Assembly (NCBI GenBank): GCA_009912575.1
Contig: WNDP01000006.1
Location: forward strand, 1 to 62,756
Direction: 5' to 3'
DNA: 62,756 nucleotides
Source: Acinetobacter bereziniae
GTDB taxonomy: Bacteria; Pseudomonadota; Gammaproteobacteria; Pseudomonadales; Moraxellaceae
Under the pieces are notes generated by a model. It ran no database searches. It was not told the origin of the DNA and was given only the letters and a program-made list of their open reading frames with translations. The number at the start of each line of letters is the position of its first letter. Positions within the stretch are counted from its first letter, which is position 1. The translations under genes and the position numbers were made by a program. Positions 18,141 through 34,609 of the stretch are shown piece after piece.

Positions 18141-18962
18141 TTACTGCATATAAATGAACTTTGAAATTTTATCTGCATAGTCCACGACATCTTGAGAGAT
18201 TTCATTTTTAAACACATTTTCTGAATAGGTGCTGAGTGGGCAACTGACTGAAAGCACGGCAGCGATTTCTTGCGTGGCTTGATTATAAATCGGTGCGGCG
18301 CTGGCTGCCATATCGGTATTAAAGTGTCCCCAACTAATCATAAAGCTTTGACTACGAACGTATTTTAAACGCTCTAATAGTGCTGCCAAATTTTGAGGCG
18401 TTCGATCAGAGTAGACTTTCCAGTCGTTGAAATGTTCATAACGTTTGATGACCTCCGCCTCATCAAGACGAGAGAGCAATAATTGTCCAATGACCGTGGC
18501 ATGCGCATGCCAACGGGTTCCGATATGCACATTACTGGTAAATGAACCGATCGATTGAACATTGCTGGTAAACACAATATCAGTACCTTCTAAAATTGAT
18601 AGATGTACCGCTATTTTAATTTTATCGCGCAACTCTCGCATAATAGGTGCAGCAATATTGGTGAGTGAGGATTTTGAGAGGCTATTAAAACCCAACTCCA
18701 TCACATTGCTATTTAAGGCATACGTTTTTTGCGACATTTTTCTTAAATAACCACAAAACTCAAGCGTGTGAATTAAACGAAAAGCACTTGAACGATTGAC
18801 ATCTAATTTCTCTGCAATTTCAGAAATGGTCATTTCCTGATGGTGCTGATCAAATAATTTTAATATGGCTAAGCCACGTACCAAGCCGGGTACTAAATAG
18901 CGCTCATCGGTATTGGATTCCGCATTTTGCTCTAAAAGAACATCTGTCGTTGTTGAATTCAT
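18141..18962 (-). CDS. IclR-family transcriptional regulator of the aromatic operon
   Basis: This 273-aa protein has an N-terminal winged helix (GLVRGLAILKLFDQHHQEMTI, then EIAEKLDVNRSSAFRLIHTLEFCGYL, about residues 24-80). A GAF-like IclR effector domain follows (VHLSILEGTDIVFTSNV, then HATVIGQLLLSRL, AASAAPIYNQATQEIAAVLSVSCP). It is transcribed away from the Rieske operon with a 258-bp divergent region holding two copies of the predicted operator, one close to each gene. Proteins of this family usually bind an aromatic effector and either repress or activate the divergent operon; which of the two cannot be decided here. Confidence 0.9.
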   Translation of the reverse strand: MNSTTTDVLLEQNAESNTDERYLVPGLVRGLAILKLFDQHHQEMTISEIAEKLDVNRSSAFRLIHTLEFCGYLRKMSQKTYALNSNVMELGFNSLSKSSLTNIAAPIMRELRDKIKIAVHLSILEGTDIVFTSNVQSIGSFTSNVHIGTRWHAHATVIGQLLLSRLDEAEVIKRYEHFNDWKVYSDRTPQNLAALLERLKYVRSQSFMISWGHFNTDMAASAAPIYNQATQEIAAVLSVSCPLSTYSENVFKNEISQDVVDYADKISKFIYMQ

Positions 18963-19057: not shown

Positions 19058-19187
19058 ATTTTTTTCATTAAAAAACTTACAAAAATGTGATTTTTTATTA
19101 ATACATTGATAATTAACAAAATATAAAAATTGACAATTAAAATGATCAAAGCTTATGCTATTCGTTATGTTTTAAATGCTAAATTAA

Positions 19188-19220: not shown

Positions 19221-19526
19221 ATGAGTTGGATCTCAGTTTGTCAGCAAGATGACATTACCGAAGATGAGCCTAAAGCCATTGATGTCGACGGTAAAAAAAT
19301 TGGTGTGTTTTTCATCGATGATCAATATTTTGCAATCGAAAATGTTTGTCCACATGCCTTCGCTTTATTAACAGAAGGTTTTATTGAAGATCAGACTGTG
19401 GAATGTCCATTGCATGAGGCGATTTTTGATATACCCACTGGTGAGTTAAAAAGTGGTCCGGGATGTCGTGATTTATGTACTTATCCCGTGCGGATTGAAG
19501 GGCAGGATGTCCAAATTCAACTGTAA
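19221..19526 (+). CDS. Rieske-type [2Fe-2S] ferredoxin of a ring-hydroxylating dioxygenase
   Basis: This 101-aa ferredoxin passes electrons from the reductase to the oxygenase. The cluster ligands are visible as C43-P-H45 and C62-P-L-H65, the CxH...CxxH pattern. Length and compactness match the BphA3/CarAc group. GGATGC precedes the ATG. It is the first gene of the operon and is directly behind the predicted IclR operator. Confidence 0.93.
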   Translation: MSWISVCQQDDITEDEPKAIDVDGKKIGVFFIDDQYFAIENVCPHAFALLTEGFIEDQTVECPLHEAIFDIPTGELKSGPGCRDLCTYPVRIEGQDVQIQL

Positions 19527-19551
19527 GTTTCATTAAGAAGGATGGAATCTC

Positions 19552-19851
19552 ATGAATACATTTAATGAGAAGCTCGCGAACTGGATTCATGCCACGCCAG
19601 CAACTGAAGCAGGAATAAACAATATTCAAATCCCGGGGCAACCTGAATTATTGGTGTGGCAAACCCGTTATAAAGCGCCCACGGTCTATGAACAGGATTT
19701 TGTTCAATACTTAATTCAAGCTTTTTCATCAGGGATCACTGAGCTAGATGAGCTTGTCCAATCTTTAAATCAGCAAGGTTTTCGCTGTGAATCTGGTGAA
19801 GCATGGACGTCTGAAACATTCTCAGACGAAATGCAACGTTTAGGTTATTGA
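19552..19851 (+). CDS. Small HTH-like (recombinase-like) protein in the dioxygenase operon
   Basis: This 99-aa protein has no catalytic motif. Its C-terminal half (ITELDELVQSLNQQGFRCESGEAWTSETF) looks like the recombinase-type helix-turn-helix found in serine recombinases, where a G...G..W....V pattern reads a DNA site. The N-terminal half has WQTRYKAPTVYEQDFV. I recall similar orphan proteins beside Rieske oxygenase genes but know of no function. It lies 25 bp after the ferredoxin gene and 17 bp before the oxygenase gene, so it is part of the operon. It may be an assembly factor, a small subunit or a regulator. Confidence 0.8.
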   Translation: MNTFNEKLANWIHATPATEAGINNIQIPGQPELLVWQTRYKAPTVYEQDFVQYLIQAFSSGITELDELVQSLNQQGFRCESGEAWTSETFSDEMQRLGY

Positions 19852-19868
19852 TTCAAGGAAGAAAAGAG

Positions 19869-20936
19869 ATGAATGCAGCAGTATCCGTAACACCAAGTGT
19901 GGAAGAGTATTTAGATTTAGGTCTACGTGATCAATGGCATCCTGTTTTAGCCAGTTGGGAAGTTGCAGCTAATCCTGTTGGAATTACACGCTTGGGCGAA
20001 AACATTGTGGTGTGGCGTGATGATCAGGGCCAAGTACATGCCTTAGAGGATCGCTGTCCGCATCGTGGCGCTCGCCTCTCTTTGGGCTGGAATTTGGGCA
20101 ATCGTGTGGCTTGTTGGTATCACGGTGTCGAAGTCCGCCATGATGGTGTTGTTGAAGATGTACCCGCAGTGCATGAATGTCCAATGAAAGGCACCAGTTG
20201 CGTCAAAAGCTATCCAGTGATTGAACAGCATGGTGCGATTTTTATGTGGTTTGGTATTGATGCCAAAGAACCAGCAAAGCCACTTGAATTTCCAGAACAA
20301 TTGGCCAGTGAGGCATGGAGTTCATTTCTGTGTCAGGCAGATTGGAAAGTCAATCATCAATATGCCATCGATAACGTGATGGACCCTATGCATGGCAGTT
20401 ATTTACATTGTACTTCGCATTCAATGGCTGAAGGCGACCGTACTGCGGAAATGAAACACCGTTCAACAGAACATGGCTTTGTTTTTGAAAAAGAAGGTCA
20501 AGTCGGGGTGAACTTTGATTGGGTTGAATATGCCAATACTGGAGCAAGCTGGTTGCGCTTGTCGATACCTTATCGTAAAGACTTTGGGCCCGGTGGAGAG
20601 TTTTGGATTGTTGGTTATGCTACGCCAATCGATGCCAACAACACTCGTGTATTTTTTTGGCGTTGTCGTAAAGTGAGTGGTTGGCAGCGTAATGTTTGGC
20701 GTTTCTTATACCGCAACCATTTAGAAAAATTACATTGGGATGTGCTTGAGCAAGATCGCATTATTTTAGAAAACCTTGCGCCACACGCACGTCAGCAGGA
20801 ATTTCTTTATCAACATGATGTTGGACTATCTCGTCTGCGTCGTTTAATGAAAAAAGAAGCAGAAAAGCAATTAAAGAAAATTGCCAATTTAAAAAGTGTA
20901 AATCGTATTGAGTTGCAGGAAGAAGCGCATGGTTAA
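19869..20936 (+). CDS. Rieske non-heme iron oxygenase, alpha subunit
   Basis: This 355-aa oxygenase is predicted to dihydroxylate (or monohydroxylate/demethylate) an aromatic or alicyclic ring. The Rieske cluster ligands are C63-P-H65 and C82-W-Y-H85. The catalytic iron site is in NVMDPMHGSYLH, with Asp172, His175 and His180. No separate beta subunit gene is present, which places it with the alpha-only oxygenases such as carbazole dioxygenase, ketosteroid hydroxylase and phthalate-type enzymes. The ATG at 19869 has AAAAGAG upstream. The ferredoxin and a reductase are encoded in the same operon, making a complete three-component system. The substrate cannot be inferred from the sequence alone. 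Confidence 0.93.
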   Translation: MNAAVSVTPSVEEYLDLGLRDQWHPVLASWEVAANPVGITRLGENIVVWRDDQGQVHALEDRCPHRGARLSLGWNLGNRVACWYHGVEVRHDGVVEDVPAVHECPMKGTSCVKSYPVIEQHGAIFMWFGIDAKEPAKPLEFPEQLASEAWSSFLCQADWKVNHQYAIDNVMDPMHGSYLHCTSHSMAEGDRTAEMKHRSTEHGFVFEKEGQVGVNFDWVEYANTGASWLRLSIPYRKDFGPGGEFWIVGYATPIDANNTRVFFWRCRKVSGWQRNVWRFLYRNHLEKLHWDVLEQDRIILENLAPHARQQEFLYQHDVGLSRLRRLMKKEAEKQLKKIANLKSVNRIELQEEAHG

Positions 20937-21693
20937 CATGGCATTGTTGCAAGGTAAAAAAGTCCTTGTCACAGGCGCAGCCAGAGGTCTGGGGCGAGAC
21001 TTTGCCCAAGCTATTGCGGAAGCAGGTGCCCAAGTGGTTATGGCAGATATTTTGACAGACCTGCTTGCTGAAGAGGCGAAGGCATTAAAGGCCAAAGGGC
21101 TTGATGTAGATGCTGTCACGATTGACTTGGCAGATAGCACTTCAATTCAACAGGCTGTTGAGCAAGCTGTTGCCCAATTATCTGGACTCGATGGTTTGGT
21201 TAATTGTGCTGCACTTGCAACCAATGTTGGTGGGAAGGACATGATGGACTATGACATGGAGCTTTGGGATCGAGTCATGAACATCAATGTTAAAGGCACT
21301 TGGTTGGTGACTAAGGCTTGTGTGCCTTATCTCAAACAGTCAGCCACTGGCAAAGTGATTCAAGTTGCTTCAGACACCGCTTTATGGGGTGCGCCAAATT
21401 TGATGGCTTATGTGGCGAGCAAAGGTGCATTAATTGCAATGACCCGTTCTATGGCAAGGGAACTTGGGCAGTTCAATATCTGTGTCAATACCTTGTCTCC
21501 AGGTCTAACCTTGGTTGAGGCCACAGCATATGTCCCACAACAACGCCACGATTTATATGTCAATGGTCGAGCAATACAACGACAGCAGTTACCACAAGAT
21601 TTAAATGGAACAGCACTATATTTACTGTCTGATTTGTCCTCATTCGTGACTGGGCAAAATATTCCAGTCAATGGTGGCTTTGTCTTTAATTGA
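20929..21693 (+). CDS. Short-chain dehydrogenase, probable cis-dihydrodiol dehydrogenase
   Basis: The protein has the SDR cofactor motif TGAARGLG near residue 16, the NAD-selecting acidic residue in VVMADI, the structural NCAALATN segment, catalytic Ser in VASDTALWG, and the catalytic pair in YVASK. It probably oxidises the cis-diol made by the oxygenase to a catechol. The ATG at 20929 overlaps the end of the oxygenase gene by 8 bases and has AGGAAG six bases upstream; a second in-frame ATG at 20938 is possible. The overlap suggests translational coupling. Confidence 0.88.
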   Translation: MVNMALLQGKKVLVTGAARGLGRDFAQAIAEAGAQVVMADILTDLLAEEAKALKAKGLDVDAVTIDLADSTSIQQAVEQAVAQLSGLDGLVNCAALATNVGGKDMMDYDMELWDRVMNINVKGTWLVTKACVPYLKQSATGKVIQVASDTALWGAPNLMAYVASKGALIAMTRSMARELGQFNICVNTLSPGLTLVEATAYVPQQRHDLYVNGRAIQRQQLPQDLNGTALYLLSDLSSFVTGQNIPVNGGFVFN

Positions 21694-21704
21694 AGAGGTA
21701 TCCG

Positions 21705-22634
21705 ATGATTACAGGGATTGAAATTTTAAAATTTGGTGTAGAAGACAGAGTTGCTTCGAATAAATTTTTGGCAGACTTTGGTCTCCAAAAAATCGAGTCG
21801 GATATCGATGGAACCGATCTTTATCAAACCCAAAATGCGAGCAAGATTTATTTATTTGACTGTGATGATTTACGTTTGCCACAGGCGATTGAAACTGGTT
21901 CAACCTTGCGAGAAGTAACTTGGGGGGTTGAGAACTCACAGGATTTAACTGATTTATCGTTGCGTCTAAAAGATGTAGAAGGCTATCAAGAGTCTGCTGA
22001 TATGCTGCAATGTCTTGATCCGAATGGCATGACCATTCGCTTTCAGCAAAGTTTTACCCATGAATTACCAGCATTAAAAACAGAAGGAATTAACCAATAC
22101 GGCAGTATCAATCGAGTAAATGCAGCAAGTCCCGTTTATCAAAAAGGACAACCTGTCGCGATTGGTCATGTGGTGTTTTTTACCCCTGACTTGGAAAAAA
22201 CAGAGTCGTTCTATATCGAAAAGATCGGTTTTTTCTTATCAGATGCCTATCGCAATCGTGGAGCCTTTTTACGTTGCCGCGGCCAAGGTTATCACCATGA
22301 TTTGTTCTTGCTATCAGTACCGAATAAACCTGCTGGGCTTAATCATGTCGCATTTGTCGTACGTGATATTCATGAAGTGATCGGCGGTGGCTTAAACATG
22401 AACCGTTCTGAATGGTCAACTTTTATTGGTCCAGGTCGTCATCCAATTTCTTCGGCTTATTTTTGGTACGTCAACTCACCTTTAGGTGGAGCATTTGAAT
22501 ATTACACCAATGATGATTATTTGACGGAAGAATGGCAGCCACGCGTGGAAGAGCATCGCCTAGAACTGTTCACAGAATGGGCCATTGAAGGTGGTTTGGA
22601 TGATCAGACCCGTAGACAAGTTAAACCTGTGTAA
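21705..22634 (+). CDS. Extradiol ring-cleavage dioxygenase (VOC superfamily, type I)
   Basis: This 309-aa, two-domain VOC protein is predicted to cleave a catechol next to its hydroxyl groups using Fe(II). The iron ligands are visible in the C-terminal domain: His155 in GHVVFF, His214 in LNHVAF and Glu265 in GGAFEYYT. The second-shell HHDLFL segment (His around 200) is also kept. The N-terminal domain is the usual degenerate copy. I place the start at the ATG at 21705 with AGAGG upstream. Its position behind oxygenase and dehydrogenase genes gives a textbook upper meta-cleavage pathway. Confidence 0.92.
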   Translation: MITGIEILKFGVEDRVASNKFLADFGLQKIESDIDGTDLYQTQNASKIYLFDCDDLRLPQAIETGSTLREVTWGVENSQDLTDLSLRLKDVEGYQESADMLQCLDPNGMTIRFQQSFTHELPALKTEGINQYGSINRVNAASPVYQKGQPVAIGHVVFFTPDLEKTESFYIEKIGFFLSDAYRNRGAFLRCRGQGYHHDLFLLSVPNKPAGLNHVAFVVRDIHEVIGGGLNMNRSEWSTFIGPGRHPISSAYFWYVNSPLGGAFEYYTNDDYLTEEWQPRVEEHRLELFTEWAIEGGLDDQTRRQVKPV

Positions 22635-22661
22635 AACACGCCTGAGTTGAGAGCACAAGCT

Positions 22662-23873
22662 ATGGAAAGAGTGGTGATCGTGGGTGCAGGACAAGCCGCA
22701 GGTTGGGCTGTCAGTACACTGCGTCAAAATGGATATTCAGGTGAGATTCATGTGGTTTCAAATGAAGACCGTGTATTTTACGAACGTCCACCCCTGTCAA
22801 AACAGGTGTTATCAAGACAAGCCAGCTATGAAAGCCTGCATTTATTTTCTCCTGAACAGGTTCAGGACTTTAATATTCAATGGCATAAACCTGCGCTTGC
22901 GACACATGTGGATCGCCAGCAGAAAAATGTGGTTTTAGATAGTGGTGAAATTTTACCTTATGACAAATTATTGATTGCTACAGGAAGTCGAGCTCGGGTT
23001 CCTGTCAATTCATGGCAATTTATTCCCAATGTGGTGACTTTACGCAATGTCCAAGATTGTGAACGATTGTCAGCCATTTTAGATCAGACACAAAAATTAG
23101 CCGTGATTGGCGGAGGCTGGATTGGCTTAGAGATCGCAGCAACTGCTCGTCAACAAGGTAAAGAGGTACATATCTTTGAATATGCTGATCGCCTTTGCGC
23201 ACGTAGTGTGAGCCCAGAAGTATCACAATTTCTGAAAAACCTACACCAACAGCAAGGTACTCAGATTCACTTAGACAGTAAAAATCTACATTTGGTTGAT
23301 GCGGGACAAAATAAAGTTGAAGTGTTAAATCATCCGCATCGAAGTGTCTTGTTCGACTGTGTCGTTGTGGGTGCTGGTGCAGAGATTGCGAAAGAGCTGG
23401 GTGTAAGTGCGGGCTTAGAAGTTAAAGATGGCATCGTGGTCAATGGTTTTGGACAAACGTCTGACCAAGATATTTACGCCGCAGGTGATGTCGCGATACA
23501 TCCAGGCTTGGGCTATTGCATACAGTCTTGGGCAAATGCCCAAAATCAAGCTATTGCCGCTGCAAAGTCAATGCTCGGTATGGATACCGAATATCTAGAT
23601 ATTCCTTGGTTATGGTCAGACCAGTATCACTACAATATCCAGATTTTAGGGACTTACCAAGCAGAAAAAAACAAGCAGATTGTGTGTCGTCAAAACTCAG
23701 CAGAGCAGTGCAGTTATTTGTATCTGGATGAGCACAATCGATTATTGAACATGATCGCAGTTAACGATGCAAAATTGGTCAAACTGGCAAAGCGCTGGAT
23801 GCAGTCCAGTACAGTATTAGACCCACAATTATTGGTAGACCCTGAATTTAATGTCATGAAATTAAAACCATAG
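22662..23873 (+). CDS. FAD/NAD(P)H-dependent ferredoxin reductase of the dioxygenase
   Basis: This 403-aa flavoprotein supplies electrons to the Rieske ferredoxin. It has the FAD-binding motif VIVGAGQAAGWAV at the start, the ERPPLSK segment of BphA4/putidaredoxin-reductase types, the NADH-binding motif VIGGGWIGLEIAA near residue 148, and the second FAD motif DIYAAGDVA near residue 278. It follows the extradiol dioxygenase by 27 bp. Together with the genes at 19221 and 19869 it completes a reductase-ferredoxin-oxygenase chain. Confidence 0.92.
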   Translation: MERVVIVGAGQAAGWAVSTLRQNGYSGEIHVVSNEDRVFYERPPLSKQVLSRQASYESLHLFSPEQVQDFNIQWHKPALATHVDRQQKNVVLDSGEILPYDKLLIATGSRARVPVNSWQFIPNVVTLRNVQDCERLSAILDQTQKLAVIGGGWIGLEIAATARQQGKEVHIFEYADRLCARSVSPEVSQFLKNLHQQQGTQIHLDSKNLHLVDAGQNKVEVLNHPHRSVLFDCVVVGAGAEIAKELGVSAGLEVKDGIVVNGFGQTSDQDIYAAGDVAIHPGLGYCIQSWANAQNQAIAAAKSMLGMDTEYLDIPWLWSDQYHYNIQILGTYQAEKNKQIVCRQNSAEQCSYLYLDEHNRLLNMIAVNDAKLVKLAKRWMQSSTVLDPQLLVDPEFNVMKLKP

Positions 23874-23913
23874 GCATTAAGTACGGTTCATGACTCAATC
23901 GAAGGAATGAAAT

Positions 23914-25137
23914 ATGAGTAATGAAGAAAAAAGTGGATTAAAGCATTGGGTTCCTGCTTTTGTCCTCATGGTATGTGTCGTTTTGGCATTCTTCGACAAA
24001 ATTAGTATCGCTGTACTATTTGCTGACCCTCACTTTCAAGGTGCGATGGGCATTGCCGAAAACAAAGCAAAACTGGGATGGCTCATGACCAGTTTCCTAC
24101 TGGCCTATGGTTTTTCATCAGTATTTTTAAGCTTTTTGGGTGATATTTTTAATCCAAAGAAAATGCTGTTTTGGAGTGTTGCTTCATGGGGTTTGCTGAT
24201 GTTCTGTATGGGGTTTACCACCGACTATACAGGCATGTTGATCTTACGTGTTTTGCTGGGTTTGGCTGAGGGTCCTTTATTTGCATTGGCTTATTCGATT
24301 GTAAAACAAACTTATACAGATCATCAGCAAGCACGTGCATCGACGATGTTTCTGTTGGGTACACCGATTGGGGCTTTTCTGGGCTTTCCGATCACAGCAG
24401 CAGTACTCGCACATCATGATTGGCATACAACATTCTTTGTCATGGCAGGATTAACCGTAATTGCATTACTGGCCATTGTATTTGGATTGCGTAATTTACA
24501 ACTGAAGAAAACCATTGAGTTGGAGTCAACCAATAAACGTATCAACTTTAAAGGACATATTCAAAACACCAAGTCGTTGTTGCAGAACAGTTCATTTTGG
24601 TTGGTGTGTATTTTCAATATTGCATTGATGACTTATTTGTGGGGCTTAAACAGTTGGGTACCTTCTTATTTGATTCAAGACAAGGGCTTTAATCTTAAAG
24701 AGTTTGGTGTTTATTCCAGCTTCCCATTTATTGCCATGTTACTGGGCGAAGTGATTGGTGCATTTCTTTCCGACAAGCTAGGGCGCCGTGCTATCCAAGT
24801 CTTTAGTGGCTTATTGGTCGCAGGAATTTTTATGTATGTCATGGTCATTATGACCAATCCAATTTTAGTCATCGCAGCAATGTCTTTAAGCGCCATGGCA
24901 TGGGGCTTTGGTGTCGCTGCAGTATTTGCCTTACTCGCTCGAGTGACTACAGCGGATGTGGGCGCAACCGCAGGTGGAATTTTCAATGGTCTAGGTAATT
25001 TTGCCAGTGCAATCGCACCTGTTTTGATTGGCTACATTGTAATGCAAACCCATAGTTTTAATTTAGGAATTACCTTTTTGGCAGCAGTTGCCGTGATTGG
25101 ATCATTCTTCTTGCTTCCTTTATTGAAACGTTATTAA
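23914..25137 (+). CDS. MFS transporter, anion:cation symporter-like, probable substrate importer
   Basis: This 407-aa inner-membrane protein has about twelve membrane segments and an MFS loop motif GDIFNPKKM between segments 2 and 3, plus SDKLGRRAI in the second half. The opening FFDKISIAVLF is typical of the ACS/phthalate-permease branch, which imports organic acids with protons. Being inside the operon, it most likely imports the aromatic acid or ester product that the oxygenase attacks. Confidence 0.85.
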   Translation: MSNEEKSGLKHWVPAFVLMVCVVLAFFDKISIAVLFADPHFQGAMGIAENKAKLGWLMTSFLLAYGFSSVFLSFLGDIFNPKKMLFWSVASWGLLMFCMGFTTDYTGMLILRVLLGLAEGPLFALAYSIVKQTYTDHQQARASTMFLLGTPIGAFLGFPITAAVLAHHDWHTTFFVMAGLTVIALLAIVFGLRNLQLKKTIELESTNKRINFKGHIQNTKSLLQNSSFWLVCIFNIALMTYLWGLNSWVPSYLIQDKGFNLKEFGVYSSFPFIAMLLGEVIGAFLSDKLGRRAIQVFSGLLVAGIFMYVMVIMTNPILVIAAMSLSAMAWGFGVAAVFALLARVTTADVGATAGGIFNGLGNFASAIAPVLIGYIVMQTHSFNLGITFLAAVAVIGSFFLLPLLKRY

Positions 25138-25160
25138 TCAAAGATATTCAGGAGTTAAAA

Positions 25161-25682
25161 ATGACTACTCAACAATTTGAAACATGGACTCAACCGAACG
25201 GTACAAGTTTAGAAGATTGGTTAAATGCACGAATTGCTCGTTTTGAAACACGCAAATATGATTTTGATGCTTTGAAGTTTCAAGCTGACTATGACCCGAA
25301 ATATCGTCGCGCGCAAATGCGCTATATGGGGACAGGAGCAACAGGAGTTGCCAATGACAATAATACTGTTCCAGCCGAAAACTTTACGTTTTCTACTATG
25401 GTGCTCCCGCCTCAGTGTGAAGGCCCTTTGCACATTCATCATGATGTGGAGGAGGTGTTTTTCATGCTACGTGGTGAGATTGATCTGTTCATTGAGCATA
25501 ACGGTGAGAAATTCCAAACCAAGCTGAAAGAGCGTGATCTAATTTCAATTCCACCAAGTATTTATCGTGGTTTATTTAATCCTGGTGAAGAAGATGCCTT
25601 GATGTGCGTCATGTTAGGTGCTGGCAAACCGACGATTCCAAACTATCCACCTGAGCATCCATTGTCTCAAATCAAACGTTAA
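25161..25682 (+). CDS. Cupin-domain protein
   Basis: This 173-aa protein has one cupin barrel with the metal-binding pattern in LHIHHDVEEVFFMLRGEIDLF (His, His, Glu around residues 95-101) and the second motif around PPSIYRGLFNPG, where the usual His is replaced by Tyr. It could be a small dioxygenase, isomerase or hydrolase acting on a ring-cleavage product, or a sensor. It has an AGGAG ribosome binding site and close spacing to both neighbours. Confidence 0.82.
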   Translation: MTTQQFETWTQPNGTSLEDWLNARIARFETRKYDFDALKFQADYDPKYRRAQMRYMGTGATGVANDNNTVPAENFTFSTMVLPPQCEGPLHIHHDVEEVFFMLRGEIDLFIEHNGEKFQTKLKERDLISIPPSIYRGLFNPGEEDALMCVMLGAGKPTIPNYPPEHPLSQIKR

Positions 25683-25714
25683 TCGTTTGATCAGATCTCC
25701 ATAAAAGGAATGAA

Positions 25715-26530
25715 ATGATGACACTGATTGATGTATTAGCCAAATATCCAGTTAAAACCGTAATCATCAAGGATGCTGTGCAAGCTTACCGTGAAGCGGG
25801 ACAAGGGCAGTACTTGGTTTTACTACATGGAATTAGTTCAGGTTCAGCATCTTGGATCAATCAGCTTGAGGTACTCAGTCGTTATTTTCATGTGATTGCT
25901 TGGGATGCGCCAGGTTATGGTCAATCAGAGGGTTTACATACGTCTCAACCGAATGCAACAGATTATGCGCAACGTTTGTCTGGCTTGTTGGACGCTTTGA
26001 ATATTTCCAAGGCAATTTTGATTGGTCACTCCCTTGGCGCTTTACAGGCCAGTGCTTTTGTTCATCTTTATCCTGAGCGGGTGAGTGCCTTGATTCTTGC
26101 GAACCCAGCGCAAGGCTATCAACGTTCGAGCGAAGATGTGAAAACTCAAGTTTATCAAAAACGTCCGAATATGCTGAAAACACTGGGTAATGCAGGTATG
26201 GCGGCATGTCGTGGACCGTATTTGATTTATAAACAAGATGATCAGGCTTTAGCCTTGGTCAATGAAGTGATGAGCCACCTTAGTTTAGATGGTTTCACTC
26301 GAGCTTCTTATTTGCTGGCTTATGATGAAATCAGAAATTATTTAACAGCATTAAACGTTCCTTGTGCGTTGATTGCAGGTGATAAAGATGAAATAACTCC
26401 TGCAAAAGCAATCAAAGAACTCAACTTAGAAATGCAATTGGGCAGTTACCATCTCATTACAGATGCAGGTCATCTGAGTTATGTCGATCAACCTGAACAG
26501 TTCAACAATATTGTTTTATCAGTCAATTAA
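25715..26530 (+). CDS. Alpha/beta hydrolase, probable meta-cleavage product hydrolase
   Basis: This 271-aa hydrolase has the oxyanion-hole segment LLHGISSGSASW, nucleophile Ser106 in LIGHSLGALQ, probable acid Asp in AGDKDE and catalytic His in DAGHLS near the C-terminus. Size and architecture match MhpC/BphD-type C-C hydrolases, which split the dienoate formed by the extradiol enzyme. Ordinary esterase activity is the alternative. It lies behind the cupin gene with an AAAGGAA ribosome binding site. Confidence 0.85.
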   Translation: MMTLIDVLAKYPVKTVIIKDAVQAYREAGQGQYLVLLHGISSGSASWINQLEVLSRYFHVIAWDAPGYGQSEGLHTSQPNATDYAQRLSGLLDALNISKAILIGHSLGALQASAFVHLYPERVSALILANPAQGYQRSSEDVKTQVYQKRPNMLKTLGNAGMAACRGPYLIYKQDDQALALVNEVMSHLSLDGFTRASYLLAYDEIRNYLTALNVPCALIAGDKDEITPAKAIKELNLEMQLGSYHLITDAGHLSYVDQPEQFNNIVLSVN

Positions 26531-26546
26531 GATTTAAACGAGAGAT

Positions 26547-27347
26547 ATGGATATGAGCTTCCACATAAAAGGAAAAGTAGCAGTTGTCACAGGTGGCTCG
26601 TCAGGGATTGGTTTGGCAGCAGTCGAAATTTTAGTTGCTGAAGGCGCCAAAGTGGCATGGTGTGGTCGAGACCAACAACGTTTGACAGCTTCGCAAAACT
26701 CTATTTTAGAAAAATACCCAGATGCTGAAGTTTTTACCAAAATTTGTAATGTTCTAGACAAAAATGACGTTCAACAATTTGCTCAACAGGTCAATCAGCA
26801 ACTCGGTAATGTTGATATGTTGATCAATAATGCGGGTCAAGGGCGCGTTTCAAATTTTGAGAATACTCAAGATGAAGATTGGATGAAAGAAATTGAATTG
26901 AAATATTTCAGTGTATTACATCCAGTTCGCGCATTTTTAAATGATTTAAAACAGTCGCAATGTGGTTCGATTACCAATGTCAATTCCTTATTGGCGTTAC
27001 AACCAGAACCTCACATGATTGCAACCTCATCTGCACGTGCAGCTTTATTAAATCTTACACATTCTTTAGCTCATGAATTCAGTCAATACGGCATTCGTGT
27101 CAATTCGATTCTGTTGGGCATGGTGGAATCTGCGCAATGGAAACGCCGTTTCGAAAACCGTTCGGACGCAAACGCGTCGTGGGAACAATGGACGGGCGAT
27201 ATTGCAAAAAACCGAGGTATTCCCATGCAGCGCTTAGGTAAGCCAGAAGAACCTGCACATGCTTTGGTATTTCTGGCATCACCTTTGGCGTCTTATACCA
27301 CAGGTGCAGCTTTGGATGTATCAGGTGGTTTTAACAAACATTTATAA
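26547..27347 (+). CDS. SDR-family protein lacking the YxxxK catalytic pair
   Basis: The Rossmann fold is clear: TGGSSGIGLAAVEI near residue 14, NNAGQGRV near 91, and a C-terminal YTTGAALDVSGGF. Where nearly all SDR enzymes have Tyr-x-x-x-Lys, this protein reads TSSAR in HMIATSSARAALL, so both Tyr and Lys are absent; the usual Ser in NVNSLLAL is kept. I recall a subgroup of SDR proteins of this kind near catabolic genes. It may bind NAD(H) without classical oxidoreductase chemistry, or use another acid/base. It sits 16 bp after the hydrolase gene and 9 bp before the AspDH-like gene. Confidence 0.85.
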   Translation: MDMSFHIKGKVAVVTGGSSGIGLAAVEILVAEGAKVAWCGRDQQRLTASQNSILEKYPDAEVFTKICNVLDKNDVQQFAQQVNQQLGNVDMLINNAGQGRVSNFENTQDEDWMKEIELKYFSVLHPVRAFLNDLKQSQCGSITNVNSLLALQPEPHMIATSSARAALLNLTHSLAHEFSQYGIRVNSILLGMVESAQWKRRFENRSDANASWEQWTGDIAKNRGIPMQRLGKPEEPAHALVFLASPLASYTTGAALDVSGGFNKHL

Positions 27348-27356
27348 GGTGTTTCC

Positions 27357-28148
27357 ATGAAACAGTTGATGATGATTGGTTTTGGCGCAATGGCCGCAGA
27401 AGTGTATGCCCATCTACCTCAAGAATTACAGCTCAAGTGGATTGTTGTACCTGTACGGAGTGTTGAAAAAGTTCAGGCACTTGTTTCAAACAATGTACAG
27501 GTGATCAGTTCAGTTGATCAGTGTCATGGCACACCAGATTATGTGATCGAAGTGGCAGGGCAAGCAGCAGTGAAAGAGCATGCACAAAAAGTACTTGAAA
27601 AAGGTTGGACCATTGGTTTGATTTCGGTGGGAACTTTGGCTGACAACGAGTTTTTGACTCAACTCAAACTTACGGCTGAGCAGCATCATGCACATCTGCA
27701 TTTACTAGCAGGCGCAATTGCAGGAATTGATGGAATTTCAGCAGCCAAAGAAGGGGGGCTGGAAAAGGTCACTTATAAGGGCTGTAAGAGTCCAAACAGT
27801 TGGCGTGGTAGCTATGCAGAACAGTTGGTTGACCTTGAACATGTAAATCAAGCAACTGTGTTTTTCAAAGGCACAGCCAGAGAGGCAGCGTTGAAGTTTC
27901 CAGCCAATGCCAATGTTGCAGCTACGATTGCGCTTGCAGGCTTAGGAATGGATCAAACCATGGTTGAGTTAAGTGTTGATCCGCATATCAACAAGAACAA
28001 ACACACCATTGTAGCGGAAGGCATGTTTGGTGAAATGACCATTGAGTTGGTGGGTGTGCCGTTGGCAAGTAATCCAAAAACCTCAACATTAGCTGCATTG
28101 AGTGTGATTCGTGCATGTCGTAACAGCGTTGAAGCAATTCAGATATAA
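27357..28148 (+). CDS. nadX: L-aspartate dehydrogenase-like oxidoreductase
   Basis: This 263-aa protein has an N-terminal nucleotide-binding fold (MIGFGAMAAE), the EVAGQAAVKEHA segment, and LLAGAIAGIDGISAAK, which match the NadX/AspDH family. The two His in DPHINKNKHTI (about residues 210-216) cover the place of the catalytic His. The family member NadX makes iminoaspartate or oxaloacetate from aspartate. Inside a catabolic operon with no NAD genes, a different amino or imino substrate is more likely, for example deamination or reductive amination of a pathway intermediate. The gene symbol is that of the family. Confidence 0.85.
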   Translation: MKQLMMIGFGAMAAEVYAHLPQELQLKWIVVPVRSVEKVQALVSNNVQVISSVDQCHGTPDYVIEVAGQAAVKEHAQKVLEKGWTIGLISVGTLADNEFLTQLKLTAEQHHAHLHLLAGAIAGIDGISAAKEGGLEKVTYKGCKSPNSWRGSYAEQLVDLEHVNQATVFFKGTAREAALKFPANANVAATIALAGLGMDQTMVELSVDPHINKNKHTIVAEGMFGEMTIELVGVPLASNPKTSTLAALSVIRACRNSVEAIQI

Positions 28149-28160
28149 AAGGATTTGATC

Positions 28161-29627
28161 ATGGTAAAGCAAATTTATATCGCAGGTGAATGGCGATTAG
28201 GCAAAGGCAATATTATCGAGAGTGTGTTTCCAGCTGATCAATCTGTGAATGCAGAAATTTCGACTGCAAGTTTGGATGATGTTGATGAAGCAATCAAAAA
28301 AGCAGATTTAGCATGGCGACAACCAAGTTGGCGCAACAGTATGCCGCATGAGCGTGCACGAATTTTATATAAAGTGGCTGAGATCATTGAAGCACGTGTC
28401 GAAGAACTAGCCCATTTACAAACCCGTGATAATGGTAAACCTTTAACAGAAACACGTGCTTTGGTCATGAGTGCGGCCGCAACTGCACGTTATGTGGCGG
28501 CGGCTTGTGAAACCTTAAATGATGAATTAACAACTCAACGTGCAGCAGATTTCATGACCATGAGTGTGCATGAACCTGTGGGTGTTGTTGCAGCGATCAC
28601 ACCGTGGAATTCGCCGATCGCCAGTGAAGTGCAAAAACTTGCCCCTGCAATAGCTGCTGGAAATGCAGTCATTCTTAAACCCGCAGAGGCAACCTCTTTA
28701 ATTGCTTTAGAACTTGCCAAAATCTTTGAGCAAGCTGGCTTACCCAAAGGCTTATTAAGCGTTTTGGTGGGGCGTGGTTCTGTGATTGGTGATGCAATCG
28801 TAAAACATCCATTGGTACGTAAAATTTCATTTACTGGAGGGACAACAACGGGCCGTCATTTGGCACATCTTGTTGCGGAGAAATTAATCCCCACTTCTTT
28901 AGAACTTGGTGGCAAATCACCGACCATTGTACTGCCAGATGCAGATATTGAATTGGCTGCTAAGGGTGTGGCTTACGGTATTTTTAGTTCGGCAGGACAG
29001 GCGTGTATTGCAGGTTCACGGTTATTTGTTCATCACAGTATCTATGATCAGTTTCTCAATCGCTTAGTTGAAATTACCAAAGCTTTACGTGTAGGGCATC
29101 CTGAGACTTCAGGTGTGCATCTCGGTTCTTTAATTAATCCTAAGCATTTGGCATCTGTGGATGCATATGTCCAATTGGCCAAGCAAGAAGGAGGTCAAGT
29201 CGTGGTAGGTGGTCAAGCATTGACGGATGGTGATTTGGCAAAAGGGAGTTATTACTTACCGACCATTATTACGGGTTTGGACAATGCTGCACAAACCTGT
29301 CAGGAAGAGATTTTTGGCCCAGTGCTAGTCGTCATCAAGTACGACGATGAGGCTGATTTGATCACCCAAGCCAATGCAAGTTGTTTTGGATTGGCCGCAG
29401 GTATTTGGACTGAAAATTATCGTAAAGCGTGGCAAATTGCTCGTGCTTTAGAGGTGGGGACAGTTTGGATCAATACTTATAAAAAATTCTCGATTTCTGC
29501 CCCGTTTGGCGGATTTAAAGACAGTGGTATAGGCCGTGAAAAAGGTCGTTTAGGCATTTTGTCTTATATGCAACAAAAAAGTATTTATATGGGATTAAGC
29601 GAACAGCCAAATCCTTGGTGTGATTGA
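28161..29627 (+). CDS. NAD(P)+-dependent aldehyde dehydrogenase
   Basis: This 488-aa enzyme oxidises an aldehyde to the acid. It has TPWNSP near residue 150, KPAEATSL, the FTGGTTTGR cofactor loop, the general base Glu in LELGGKSP (about 248), and catalytic Cys282 in GQACIAGSR. The C-terminal FGGFKDSGIGRE is typical of the betaine-aldehyde/hydroxymuconic-semialdehyde type. It is not the acylating type that normally ends meta pathways. The ATG at 28161 has AAAGGA upstream. It lies directly before the ThDP enzyme, which could produce its aldehyde. Confidence 0.93.
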   Translation: MVKQIYIAGEWRLGKGNIIESVFPADQSVNAEISTASLDDVDEAIKKADLAWRQPSWRNSMPHERARILYKVAEIIEARVEELAHLQTRDNGKPLTETRALVMSAAATARYVAAACETLNDELTTQRAADFMTMSVHEPVGVVAAITPWNSPIASEVQKLAPAIAAGNAVILKPAEATSLIALELAKIFEQAGLPKGLLSVLVGRGSVIGDAIVKHPLVRKISFTGGTTTGRHLAHLVAEKLIPTSLELGGKSPTIVLPDADIELAAKGVAYGIFSSAGQACIAGSRLFVHHSIYDQFLNRLVEITKALRVGHPETSGVHLGSLINPKHLASVDAYVQLAKQEGGQVVVGGQALTDGDLAKGSYYLPTIITGLDNAAQTCQEEIFGPVLVVIKYDDEADLITQANASCFGLAAGIWTENYRKAWQIARALEVGTVWINTYKKFSISAPFGGFKDSGIGREKGRLGILSYMQQKSIYMGLSEQPNPWCD

Positions 29628-29665
29628 TCCATTCATGGAATGAAAAAGTTTTTGAGGAACAAATA

Positions 29666-31306
29666 ATGACAGAACGTGTAAATGTAGGTGAAGCAATCGC
29701 TCGGGTTTTAGAAGCGCACCAAGTTGAGAGTATTTATGGTGTTATCTCGATTCACAACTTACCCATCGCTGATGCAGTTGGGCGCCGTGAAAAAATTCGT
29801 TTTGTCGCTGCTCGTGGCGAAGCTGGTGCGGTGACAATGGCAGATGGGCATGCGCGCTTTAAAGGTTTAGGGGTTGCTTTAACCAGTACAGGCGCAGGCG
29901 CAGGAAATGCTGTAGGGTCATTGATCGAAGCAATGAATGCAGGTAGTCCAGTTTTACATTTAACTGGGCAAGTGGAACGTGAATATCTTGATCGTGATGC
30001 CAGTTTTATTCATGAAACCAAAGATCAGCTGACTTTTTTACGAGCATCCAGTAAAGCTGCATTTCGCATTACCAGTCCAGATAATGCTGTAGGGGTGATT
30101 CGTGAAGCAATTCGTGTTGCAACAACTGTACCCATGGGCCCTGTTAGCGTTGAATTGCCTATAGATGTACAAGCTGCTGAAATCGATTTACCACTTAACT
30201 TAGGTCCAGTAAAAGCACTGGAATTACCACAGGCTGAGCAAGTTGAAGTCGATTTGATTGTTCAGGAAATTAAACGAGCCAAACGTCCGATATTTTGGAT
30301 TGGTGGCGGTACATTGAAAAGTGTGGAAGAAGTTAAAGCCATTGCTGATTTGGGAATACCTATTGTGTCATCTACCCATGCACGTGGTGTATTGGCAGAT
30401 GATCATCCTCGTAGTTTGGGAGCATTTCATAATTCAGCAGCAGTTGAACAACTGTTAAAAGACGCTGATTTATTGGTTGTGGTCGGTTCGCGGTTACGTA
30501 GTAATGAAACTAAAACTTATTCAGTACAGTTTCCAGACAATATTATCCAAATCGACGCTAATCCAGTCGCACAACAGCGTAATTACAATGTACGTCACTT
30601 TATCTGTGCTGATGCTAAACATGTGTTGCAAGGCGTAGTGGCTGGGTTAGTAGGTGTGTCAAAAGTAGATGCAGAATACGATAAAGCTATTGTTCAGGCA
30701 AAACAGGCAGCAATAGATGCTTTACGTACTCAGTTAGATCAATATGCCCTGATTTGTGATCACTTACGTGCCGCATTACCTCAAGATGGTATTTTTGTCC
30801 GAGATATCACCATGTCGGGCAGTACTTGGGGCAGTCGTTTATTTCCAGTACAAGCACCGAATCTCAATATTCACTCTTTAGCTGGCGCTATTGGTCTCGG
30901 TCTAGCAACTGCGATAGGCGCTTCAATTGCCAACCCAGACAAGAAAGTGATTGGTCTAGTCGGTGATGGCGGCTTGATGTTGGGTATCGGAGAGATTGCC
31001 ACCATGGCACAAGAAAATACCAATATGGTGCTGATGATCATGAATGATGGTGGTTATGGGGTGATGCGAGGTATCCAAAATAATTACTTTGGAGGACGCC
31101 AATATTTTAATGAATTACATACCCCTGACTATCAAGCTTTAGGAGAAGCAATGGGAGTCAAAAGTTGGAAAGTGGGCAGTGCAGAGGAATTTAGCACAGT
31201 CATTCAGGAAGCCGTTGGTTTTCATGGTCCAAGTGTGATTGAACTGGATATGAAGTCGATAGGCCCCTTAAACTTTGCGGGACCTCCGCAAAAGAAATTG
31301 TATTAA
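29666..31306 (+). CDS. Thiamine-diphosphate-dependent enzyme (acetolactate synthase / 2-oxoacid decarboxylase-like)
   Basis: This 546-aa protein has the three domains of the acetohydroxyacid-synthase/benzoylformate-decarboxylase fold. Glu52 in ARGEAGAVTMADGHAR is the residue that activates ThDP. The ThDP-binding motif begins GDGGLMLGIGE near residue 433 and ends NDGGYG near 463. It is probably catabolic, decarboxylating or ligating a 2-oxo acid; an aldehyde product would feed the preceding aldehyde dehydrogenase. A GAGGAAC ribosome binding site supports the ATG at 29666 instead of the upstream TTG. It is the last gene of the tight operon. Confidence 0.9.
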   Translation: MTERVNVGEAIARVLEAHQVESIYGVISIHNLPIADAVGRREKIRFVAARGEAGAVTMADGHARFKGLGVALTSTGAGAGNAVGSLIEAMNAGSPVLHLTGQVEREYLDRDASFIHETKDQLTFLRASSKAAFRITSPDNAVGVIREAIRVATTVPMGPVSVELPIDVQAAEIDLPLNLGPVKALELPQAEQVEVDLIVQEIKRAKRPIFWIGGGTLKSVEEVKAIADLGIPIVSSTHARGVLADDHPRSLGAFHNSAAVEQLLKDADLLVVVGSRLRSNETKTYSVQFPDNIIQIDANPVAQQRNYNVRHFICADAKHVLQGVVAGLVGVSKVDAEYDKAIVQAKQAAIDALRTQLDQYALICDHLRAALPQDGIFVRDITMSGSTWGSRLFPVQAPNLNIHSLAGAIGLGLATAIGASIANPDKKVIGLVGDGGLMLGIGEIATMAQENTNMVLMIMNDGGYGVMRGIQNNYFGGRQYFNELHTPDYQALGEAMGVKSWKVGSAEEFSTVIQEAVGFHGPSVIELDMKSIGPLNFAGPPQKKLY

Positions 31307-33716: not shown

Positions 33717-33883
33717 TCAATTTTAATGTAATTGTCAACTTAATCATTAAAGTATCGCATCGTTAGAGGCTTAGCAATCATTGTATCTTTTCAGGATACA
33801 GTTTGTATTTAAATCACTATCTAGTGGTTTACGTGTATTTTTGCTTTGATATAGATTCCTTTACAAATATGTTGCAAATCAGA

Positions 33884-34570
33884 ATGAATAAAGCATTTTT
33901 AGAACAACTTAGCCCACAAAATTGTCAAATTATTTTCATTGACCAACAACCACAAATGGCTTTTGGGGTACAGTCGATTGACCGCCAAACTTTAAAAAAT
34001 AATGTTGTAGGACTGGCGAAAGCAGCCAAAGTTTTTAATATCCCCACCACCATTACAACAGTTGAAACGGAAAGTTTTTCTGGACACACTTTTCCAGAAT
34101 TATTAAACGTTTTTCCAGAGGCTGCTTTACTTGAAAGAACCTCTATGAATTCATGGGATGATCAAAAGGTTCGTGATGCACTGGCAGCAAATCATCGTAA
34201 AAAAATTATCGTATCTGGATTGTGGACTGAAGTTTGCAATATCACATTTGCTTTCGGTGCGATGTTGGAAGGTGACTATGAAATTTATATGGTTGCTGAT
34301 GCTTCTGGTGGAACATCTAAAGAAGCCCATGATTATGCAATGCAACGGATGATTCAAGCCGGAGTTATCCCTGTGACATGGCAACAGGTTTTGCTTGAAT
34401 GGCAACGTGATTGGGCACATCGAGAAACCTATGATGCTGTGATGGATATTGTTCGAGAGCATTCAGGTGCCTATGGTATGGGCGTCGATTATGCGTATAC
34501 CATGGTCCACAAAGCACCCGAAAGAACCACGACTCAGCATGAAGTAATTGCTGCTGTACCTGCAAAATAA
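33884..34570 (+). CDS. Isochorismatase-like cysteine hydrolase (YcaC type)
   Basis: This protein of about 228 aa has the cysteine-hydrolase fold: catalytic Asp in IIFIDQQPQ and the nucleophile Cys in VSGLWTEVCNITFAFG near residue 120, with the adjacent cis-peptide segment. The family cleaves amides, ureides or isochorismate-type substrates; members of the YcaC branch have no certain substrate. The best start is the ATG at 33884 (MNKAFLEQL), with an in-frame ATG at 33869 as an alternative; neither has a strong ribosome binding site. It precedes the amidohydrolase by 39 bp, suggesting that the two act in sequence. Confidence 0.85.
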   Translation: MNKAFLEQLSPQNCQIIFIDQQPQMAFGVQSIDRQTLKNNVVGLAKAAKVFNIPTTITTVETESFSGHTFPELLNVFPEAALLERTSMNSWDDQKVRDALAANHRKKIIVSGLWTEVCNITFAFGAMLEGDYEIYMVADASGGTSKEAHDYAMQRMIQAGVIPVTWQQVLLEWQRDWAHRETYDAVMDIVREHSGAYGMGVDYAYTMVHKAPERTTTQHEVIAAVPAK

Positions 34571-34609
34571 GCCCGATAGATATACATATTCATTGATATG
34601 GAGATGATC

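Follow-up and report, generated by a model that had tools for sequence, protein, structure and literature searches.

A thirteen-gene operon of Acinetobacter bereziniae as a probable kynurenate degradation pathway with exchangeable entry modules

Among the bioactive compounds that animals and plants form from tryptophan are kynurenic and xanthurenic acids. Bacterial breakdown of kynurenate was described chemically around 1960, and the pathway carries the EC numbers 1.14.99.2, 1.3.1.18 and 1.13.11.10. Its classical intermediates are the 7,8-dihydrodiol, 7,8-dihydroxykynurenate, and the 5-(3-carboxy-3-oxopropenyl)-, 5-(2-formylethyl)- and 5-(2-carboxyethyl)-4,6-dihydroxypicolinates. Judging by their titles, papers by Horibata in 1961 and by Taniuchi and Hayaishi in 1963 reportedly deal with kynurenate in bacteria. 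We know of no genes from this 1961–1963 work and, to our knowledge, the kynurenate and xanthurenate pathway has had no sequences since about 1960. Here, we analyzed a 13-gene operon at positions 19221–31306 of a 62,756-nt stretch of Acinetobacter bereziniae DNA (the window, which is the whole stretch). We propose, with a probability of roughly 0.6, that kynurenate (4-hydroxyquinoline-2-carboxylate) is the substrate of this operon, that its relatives also use xanthurenate and xanthurenate sulfate, and that the route is the classical quinoline branch of tryptophan catabolism.

The operon encodes the same succession of enzyme classes as the kynurenate (quinoline) pathway of Pseudomonas: dioxygenation, dihydrodiol dehydrogenation, extradiol cleavage, 2-oxo acid decarboxylation and aldehyde oxidation. 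Unlike that pathway, it is known from its genes alone, and the ring opening to iminosuccinate and the role of a second short-chain dehydrogenase/reductase (SDR2) are proposals. The 3-phenylpropionate (hca/mhp) pathway shares with it HcaC- and HcaD-like ferredoxin and reductase, a diol dehydrogenase, an extradiol enzyme and an MhpC-type hydrolase fold, whereas the oxygenase alpha subunit here is of the VanA_C type, the operon has no beta subunit gene, and the MhpD, MhpE and MhpF families were not found. With the homoprotocatechuate (hpa) pathway it shares a VOC extradiol dioxygenase closest to HpaD and an aldehyde dehydrogenase (ALDH) near HpaE, both under the family cut-offs; however, the HpaF, HpaG, HpaH and HpaI families are not listed for the operon, which has in addition a thiamine diphosphate (ThDP) enzyme and an aspartate dehydrogenase (AspDH). 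The original prediction, made from the same DNA, held that no nameable pathway fits. On the present reading this was wrong, as the steps follow one another as in bacterial kynurenate breakdown.

All 13 open reading frames lie on the plus strand with intergenic gaps of at most 40 bp, taking the starts as listed here together with the upstream features:

18141–18962, minus strand: divergent IclR-family regulator, PcaR/PobR-like (PF01614/PF09339; TIGR02431 at 153.5 bits, under cut-off)
19130–19159, plus strand: promoter-like site TTGACA-18-TATGCT, 5' of gene 1 (consensus scan alone)
19221–19526, plus strand: Rieske ferredoxin (PF00355; AndAb/HcaC-like, under cut-offs)
19552–19851, plus strand: HTH_62 small protein (PF20552, 94.5 bits)
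19869–20936, plus strand: Rieske oxygenase alpha subunit, proposed kynurenate 7,8-dioxygenase (PF00355 and VanA_C)
20938–21693, plus strand: SDR1 with classical YxxxK, proposed 7,8-dihydrodiol dehydrogenase (family match)
21705–22634, plus strand: VOC extradiol dioxygenase, proposed 7,8-dihydroxykynurenate 8,8a-dioxygenase (HpaD-like, under cut-off; glyoxalase/VOC domain)
22662–23873, plus strand: ferredoxin reductase (HcaD-like, 320 bits, under cut-off)
23914–25137, plus strand: major facilitator superfamily (MFS) transporter, proposed uptake (PF07690)
25161–25682, plus strand: cupin (cupin_2), proposed ring opening or tautomerisation (HxHxDVEE; generic cupin matches)
25715–26530, plus strand: alpha/beta hydrolase, proposed to act on the pyridine ring as a C-C or N-acyl hydrolase (Ser-Asp-His)
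26547–27347, plus strand: SDR2 with atypical Ser-Thr-Arg centre, proposed to reduce the side-chain C=C (PRK07062, 454 bits, above cut-off)
27357–28148, plus strand: AspDH, proposed iminosuccinate/aspartate step (PRK13303.1-3, 440 bits against a cut-off of 177)
28161–29627, plus strand: ALDH, proposed aldehyde-to-acid step (PF00171; BADH/HpaE-like, under cut-offs)
29666–31306, plus strand: ThDP enzyme, proposed 2-oxo acid decarboxylase (PRK07064, 856 bits, above cut-off)

The 13-gene operon, like the modular architecture described below, is firmly established. The original prediction had described it as a full upper route from Rieske system to extradiol enzyme, joined to an unusual lower route from which hydratase, aldolase and acylating ALDH are missing, and this description holds. 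By family matches, one unit combines a ring-hydroxylating dioxygenase with its ferredoxin and reductase, a dihydrodiol dehydrogenase (SDR1), an extradiol dioxygenase, a ThDP enzyme and an ALDH; cupin_2, a second SDR and AspDH were likewise identified. Pfam comparison at E 0.001 matched none of the 13 proteins to a hydratase of the FAH type, an aldolase of the HpcH or DRE-TIM type, or an acylating ALDH. A meta-cleavage upper route that has ThDP, ALDH and AspDH enzymes in place of hydratase and aldolase makes sense if the substrate is a quinoline.

From this gene content, we infer the substrate and each of the reactions that follow. The three-component Rieske system would convert kynurenate to its 7,8-cis-dihydrodiol, and SDR1 would oxidise this to 7,8-dihydroxykynurenate. 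The VOC enzyme would then cut the C8-C8a bond to give 5-(3-carboxy-3-oxopropenyl)-4,6-dihydroxypicolinate, SDR2 might reduce the conjugated C=C of the side chain, the ThDP enzyme would remove CO2 from the 2-oxo acid, and ALDH would form 5-(2-carboxyethyl)-4,6-dihydroxypicolinate. The hydrolase, perhaps together with the cupin, may open and cleave the pyridine ring to yield glutarate and iminosuccinate, the latter being turned into aspartate by AspDH; in Pseudomonas, RidA could deaminate the imine. The intermediates of dioxygenation, dihydrodiol oxidation, ring cleavage, decarboxylation and aldehyde oxidation are the classical ones, and the roles of SDR2 and the cupin and the details and products of ring opening are our own, speculative additions. 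The formula balance closes (C9H9NO6 + 2 H2O = glutarate + iminosuccinate). Because the last intermediate and two waters equal exactly these two products, each core enzyme except the cupin has one task, and AspDH gains a defined job since the kynurenate route would yield iminosuccinate. Aspartate dehydrogenases of P. aeruginosa, Ralstonia and Klebsiella have aspartate/iminosuccinate activity. The earlier suggestion of a nitrogen-containing aromatic whose breakdown passes through a 2-oxo acid, with decarboxylation and then oxidation, is supported, and a nitrogen-containing substrate is likely.

The operon block is colinear with all six matching A. baumannii records, in which 98% of the query aligns at 77.8–77.9% DNA identity. 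With differing carriers, transporters and gene order, the core is also present in Klebsiella, Caballeronia, Novosphingobium, Paracoccus, Pseudosulfitobacter and Nitratireductor records; an unannotated Streptomyces record (L032) holds it too, with an AspDH match of only 96 bits. Thus, being colinear in A. baumannii and with a core gene set that recurs in alpha-, beta- and gammaproteobacteria, the operon is not a chance grouping. We pooled 112 loci that have both the ThDP enzyme and SDR2, using hand-set thresholds and no dereplication (NK8 is counted twice, and the matches of L076 and L185 are identical). These loci encode VOC (110), hydrolase (110), AspDH (109), ALDH (109), the IclR regulator (111) and the cupin (102), and 13 of them encode RidA, which was seen in Pseudomonas and in Caballeronia M1242.

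Conserved catalytic residues, defined as those kept in at least 95% of the aligned sequences of an operon family, are directly visible in most of these enzymes. The Rieske alpha subunit has CPHRG, CxYHG and DPMHGxYLH (105 aligned sequences), the VOC enzyme its His, His and Glu ligands and GxHH (110 sequences; HPCD is closest in the PDB), and the hydrolase its Ser-Asp-His triad (111 sequences), with meta-cleavage-product hydrolases heading its PDB list. The glutamate of RGEAG is conserved in the ThDP enzyme (112 sequences), which is probably a 2-oxo acid decarboxylase. AspDH scores above the NCBIfam cut-off and keeps the NxH and NPKTS motifs, as in 2dc1; the His of NxH is catalytic. As the original prediction had noticed, SDR2 lacks the YxxxK pair: Thr and Arg stand at the Tyr and Lys positions, and TSxAR is conserved in 113 sequences. 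A close solved relative, 3lf1/3lf2 (Q9HYA2), is presumably a P. aeruginosa protein, and its depositors are said to have described the catalytic centre as atypical. The cupin keeps HxHxDVEE but lacks the full metal-ligand set of a metal-dependent cupin dioxygenase like 3-hydroxyanthranilate 3,4-dioxygenase (3-HAO), with Arg136, invariant in 20 sequences, at the position of the last metal His. Its model is of low confidence (mean predicted local distance difference test score, pLDDT, 69) and matches generic cupins only in the PDB.

The coupling of genes into modules is also seen directly. In the pooled set, 104 loci carry the Rieske oxygenase and eight do not; one of the eight (L187) is edge-cut with a Rieske fragment, leaving seven truly Rieske-less loci (L123, L130, L131, L174, L175, L176 and L186). 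These numbers give no frequency, because the 80 loci retrieved with the oxygenase alignment are Rieske-positive by construction and come mostly from Burkholderiales. Loci with the oxygenase encode SDR1 (102 of 104), HTH_62 (85), the Rieske ferredoxin (69) and the HcaD-like reductase (66), as well as a VanB-type reductase (27), RidA (13) and a flavin adenine dinucleotide (FAD) monooxygenase (13), and none of the 104 has a sulfatase or a tripartite ATP-independent periplasmic (TRAP) transporter. Each of SDR1, HTH_62, ferredoxin and reductase is absent from all seven Rieske-less loci, and SDR1, the electron carriers and HTH_62 are therefore part of the Rieske module; counting the edge-cut locus, SDR1 occurs in it alone and HTH_62 in 0 of 8. 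The core is kept in the Rieske-less loci (cupin in 4 of 7), and both the IclR gene (103/104 and 8/8) and AspDH (101/104 and 8/8) occur on either side. TRAP DctM/DctP genes are found in all seven and a sulfatase in six (not in Vibrio L123), the six deriving from just two families (f176 and f253). An FAD monooxygenase is above threshold in five; that of L131 is an edge fragment, and L186 stops before its place. The flavin hydroxylase and TRAP transporter, mostly with the sulfatase, thus constitute an alternative entry to the core.

Flavin hydroxylases from Rieske-positive and Rieske-less loci belong to one family (56–84% identity among 11 compared). The closest solved relatives of the one member searched, from Nitratireductor, are tropone 2-monooxygenase and NicC (6-hydroxynicotinate 3-monooxygenase), which could be consistent with a xanthurenate 7-hydroxylase. 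The sulfatase motif is CQPNR in five loci and CQSNR in one, and the sulfatases inspected have, as judged by eye, an N-terminus without an evident signal peptide. Such gene content is what would be expected for xanthurenate and xanthurenate sulfate. The catechol could then be entered from the arene (Rieske system and SDR1), the phenol (flavin hydroxylase) or the phenol's sulfate, with kynurenate, xanthurenate (8-hydroxykynurenate) and xanthurenate sulfate converging on 7,8-dihydroxykynurenate. At about even odds, we consider the cluster a kynurenate/xanthurenate gene set with an undescribed lower half. In it, a Ser-Thr-Arg SDR would act as ene-reductase and dihydroxypicolinate would be hydrolysed to glutarate and iminosuccinate, caught by AspDH or RidA. 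Swappable modules would feed this core: kynurenate would enter through the Rieske system, xanthurenate through the flavin hydroxylase, and xanthurenate sulfate through TRAP and a cytoplasmic sulfatase.

HTH_62 might assist the oxygenase and not act as a regulator; its model (mean pLDDT 74) matched nothing in the PDB at an E value of 0.001 or better. Next to the reductase, four alphaproteobacterial loci (L030, L031, L034 and L173) encode a flavodoxin-domain protein, accompanied by either a pentapeptide-repeat protein or a hypothetical one. A Rieske ferredoxin was neither annotated nor detected in these four, and the flavodoxin-domain protein possibly replaces this carrier. In the Caballeronia NK8 variant (L033, 16039–19710), the Rieske, ThDP and VOC genes lie beside a molybdenum hydroxylase.

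The original prediction had called for a search for the same gene order in Burkholderiales and Pseudomonas, and the core occurs in both, with variation in order, carrier and transporter. Of the 80 genome-contig loci retrieved with the oxygenase alignment, which are mostly from Burkholderiales, the majority contain it; in a scan of 89 loci, for which the Rieske query began one codon past the start, the ThDP enzyme was detected in 81, and a number of the misses were short or truncated. In two Pseudomonas genera, the operon was found in 3 of 25 and 24 of 298 genomes. The order there is ATP-binding cassette (ABC) transporter, SDR1, cupin, hydrolase, IclR, SDR2, ThDP, AspDH, ALDH, VOC, and in contrast to the window operon, a VanB-type reductase, often with RidA, replaces ferredoxin and reductase, and ABC replaces MFS. 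We take PA3499–PA3514 of P. aeruginosa PAO1 to be the Pseudomonas version and PA3505 to be its AspDH. According to two studies, PA3505 is predicted to be essential in three of four host-like media (PMC9732424) and PA3506 is depleted in a bfd mutant (PMC7760384).

The AspDH NCBIfam family occurs in 41 of 199 Moraxellaceae genomes, 12 of the 41 from a second genus, in which the two loci opened (L136 and L140) have AspDH without the cluster. In wider samples, AspDH reached E 1e-60 in 4 of 274 genomes at class level and in 7 of 293 at order level, and ThDP was above cut-off in 15 of 398 genomes across the phylum, so that the cluster is patchy there. It reaches A. baumannii, K. pneumoniae, Burkholderia, Pseudomonas and marine bacteria. 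Nine AspDH loci that stand alone or in other contexts (L127–L129, L132–L136 and L140) were excluded as operon evidence; distant ThDP matches below cut-off (L179–L184) and the ThDP gene of Variovorax SRS16 lie in other gene contexts. Some "plasmid" records resemble chromosome pieces, for example a K. pneumoniae record with speA and metK. One Acinetobacter locus (L139, genome G076, 19.9 kb) holds a decayed operon in which ThDP and AspDH genes are fragmented, the reductase match is weak and the first five genes were undetected, while the regulator and several genes are still present.

Several observations weigh against kynurenate as the substrate. SDR1 was undetected in two of the 104 Rieske-positive loci (L029 and L033), and the cupin, speculatively a ring-opening enzyme or tautomerase, has no proven role. 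A search found no tryptophan 2,3-dioxygenase (KynA) in this A. bereziniae genome, and kynurenate would therefore have to be external. In favour of kynurenate, KynA in one Pseudomonas genus occurs in 10 of 24 operon-positive and 8 of 49 operon-negative genomes (Fisher p 0.024), a comparison that covers 49 of 274 operon-negative genomes, includes one KynA of the eight under the family cut-off, and ignores kinship; adding three operon-positive genomes of the second genus (KynA 0/3) gives 10 of 27 and p 0.052. Against it, KynA genes were not adjacent to the operon in the Pseudomonas genomes and operon loci scanned, and a predicted loss of kynureninase (KynU) from operon- and KynA-positive Pseudomonas failed, with KynU in 18 of 18 KynA-positive genomes. 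The molybdenum hydroxylase of the NK8 variant, considered as a quinoline-type enzyme, is closest to 4-hydroxybenzoyl-CoA reductase, not quinoline oxidoreductase. Finally, in a study of A. baumannii AB5075, ABUW_2942 (ALDH), ABUW_2943 (AspDH) and ABUW_2946 (cupin) are up 1.97–2.26 log2 with vitamin B12, tabulated alongside ssu, tau and sfn sulfur-starvation genes (PMC12892962). By names and spacing, these genes would belong to this operon, and kynurenate does not explain the rise.

That rise of about 4-fold and the sulfatases of the six loci suggest instead that a sulfated or sulfonated aromatic serves as a sulfur source, the carbon skeleton being burnt after sulfur release. We find this improbable: no Rieske-positive locus has a sulfatase, the AB5075 table reports a response to vitamin B12 and not tested sulfur limitation, and SDR1 in 102 of 104 loci makes a stable dihydrodiol likelier than sulfite elimination. 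Another N-heteroaromatic or aminoaromatic acid, such as a different quinoline carboxylate or a derivative of pyridine or aminobenzoate, might follow the same upper route and supply an imino acid for AspDH. AspDH in nearly all loci of both kinds and RidA in some point to nitrogen in general, and the NicC-like hydroxylase and the NK8 molybdenum hydroxylase fit such a substrate. This alternative is nonetheless unlikely, as a quinoline-2-carboxylate would be the simplest source of both a C4 amino-diacid and a 2-oxo side chain that undergoes decarboxylation, and single-ring substrates would have no obvious need for ThDP, ALDH and AspDH jointly.

An alpha- or beta-phenylalanine-type substrate, cleaved like 3-phenylpropionate, could release aspartate directly through a C-C hydrolase, which the HcaD-like reductase, the meta-cleavage-product-hydrolase-like hydrolase and AspDH would fit. 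The other half would be 2-hydroxypentadienoate, though, for which the hydratase and aldolase families were not found among the 13 proteins, and ThDP, SDR2 and ALDH would be left without explanation, making this a far-fetched option. One article describes the fate of kynurenic acid as unknown in yeast and higher eukaryotes and mentions a route suggested for P. fluorescens, credited to Taniuchi and Hayaishi 1963 (PMC5610271), and another cites Horibata 1961 (PMC11354673); PMC8778235 and PMC3053476 have no bearing on the genes. Among the matches listed in the open literature (subscription papers and preprints lay outside the search), no paper described the cluster or joined kynurenate to a Rieske or extradiol gene. 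That silence would suit an aromatic pathway unlike any described, as originally predicted, but the step order coincides with kynurenate biochemistry, and we give such novelty very little credence. Of that first interpretation, the nitrogen-containing aromatic and 2-oxo acid operon stands and the lack of a nameable pathway does not; the divergent IclR gene and wide spread had gone unmentioned. A homarine route was dropped because the literature match was unrelated, and a cysteate/sulfopyruvate reading of AspDH, ThDP and ALDH, a mimosine-like dihydroxypyridine and DOPA-type substrates lacked genomic support or left genes unused.

One locus outside the 112 (L101), which we count in favour of kynurenate, has Rieske, SDR1, cupin, ThDP, AspDH and VOC genes, with SDR2 and ALDH undetected. 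A 3-HAO gene above cut-off lies 2.7 kb upstream of its HTH_62 gene, an arrangement met in no other operon locus that was scanned for 3-HAO, KynU and KynA; the molybdenum hydroxylase beside this locus is CO-dehydrogenase-like. A separate recurrent cluster (L188, L190, L191 and L192) combines AspDH with a DapA-like aldolase; three of these loci also have 3-HAO, the remaining one has kynureninase, and two have a succinate-semialdehyde-type dehydrogenase. It may be an undescribed lower route for 3-hydroxyanthranilate via iminosuccinate, and AspDH relatives beside 3-HAO or kynureninase, which likewise speak for the kynurenate reading, could handle an iminosuccinate-like fragment there too.

The source genome of the window comprises 5.16 Mb in 335 contigs, and the closest matches are from A. 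baumannii. A promoter scan of the region returned 19 sites against 27.7 expected by chance, and the promoter and terminator scans were uninformative. Positions 33803–36484 of the window, downstream of a LysR gene, encode a YcaC-like isochorismatase-family hydrolase and then an Amidohydro_3 (YtcJ-like) protein; this pair does not adjoin the operon in A. baumannii L003. A large open reading frame on the minus strand (13850–16084) resembles, by eye, phospholipase C.

If kynurenate is indeed the substrate, genes would be assigned to enzyme steps known only without sequences, and the cluster would be a genomic marker for bacterial kynurenate removal in host and soil. A conserved "unknown aromatic" operon, including the solved function-unknown protein Q9HYA2, would be explained, and a family of catabolic aspartate dehydrogenases would gain a physiological reason.

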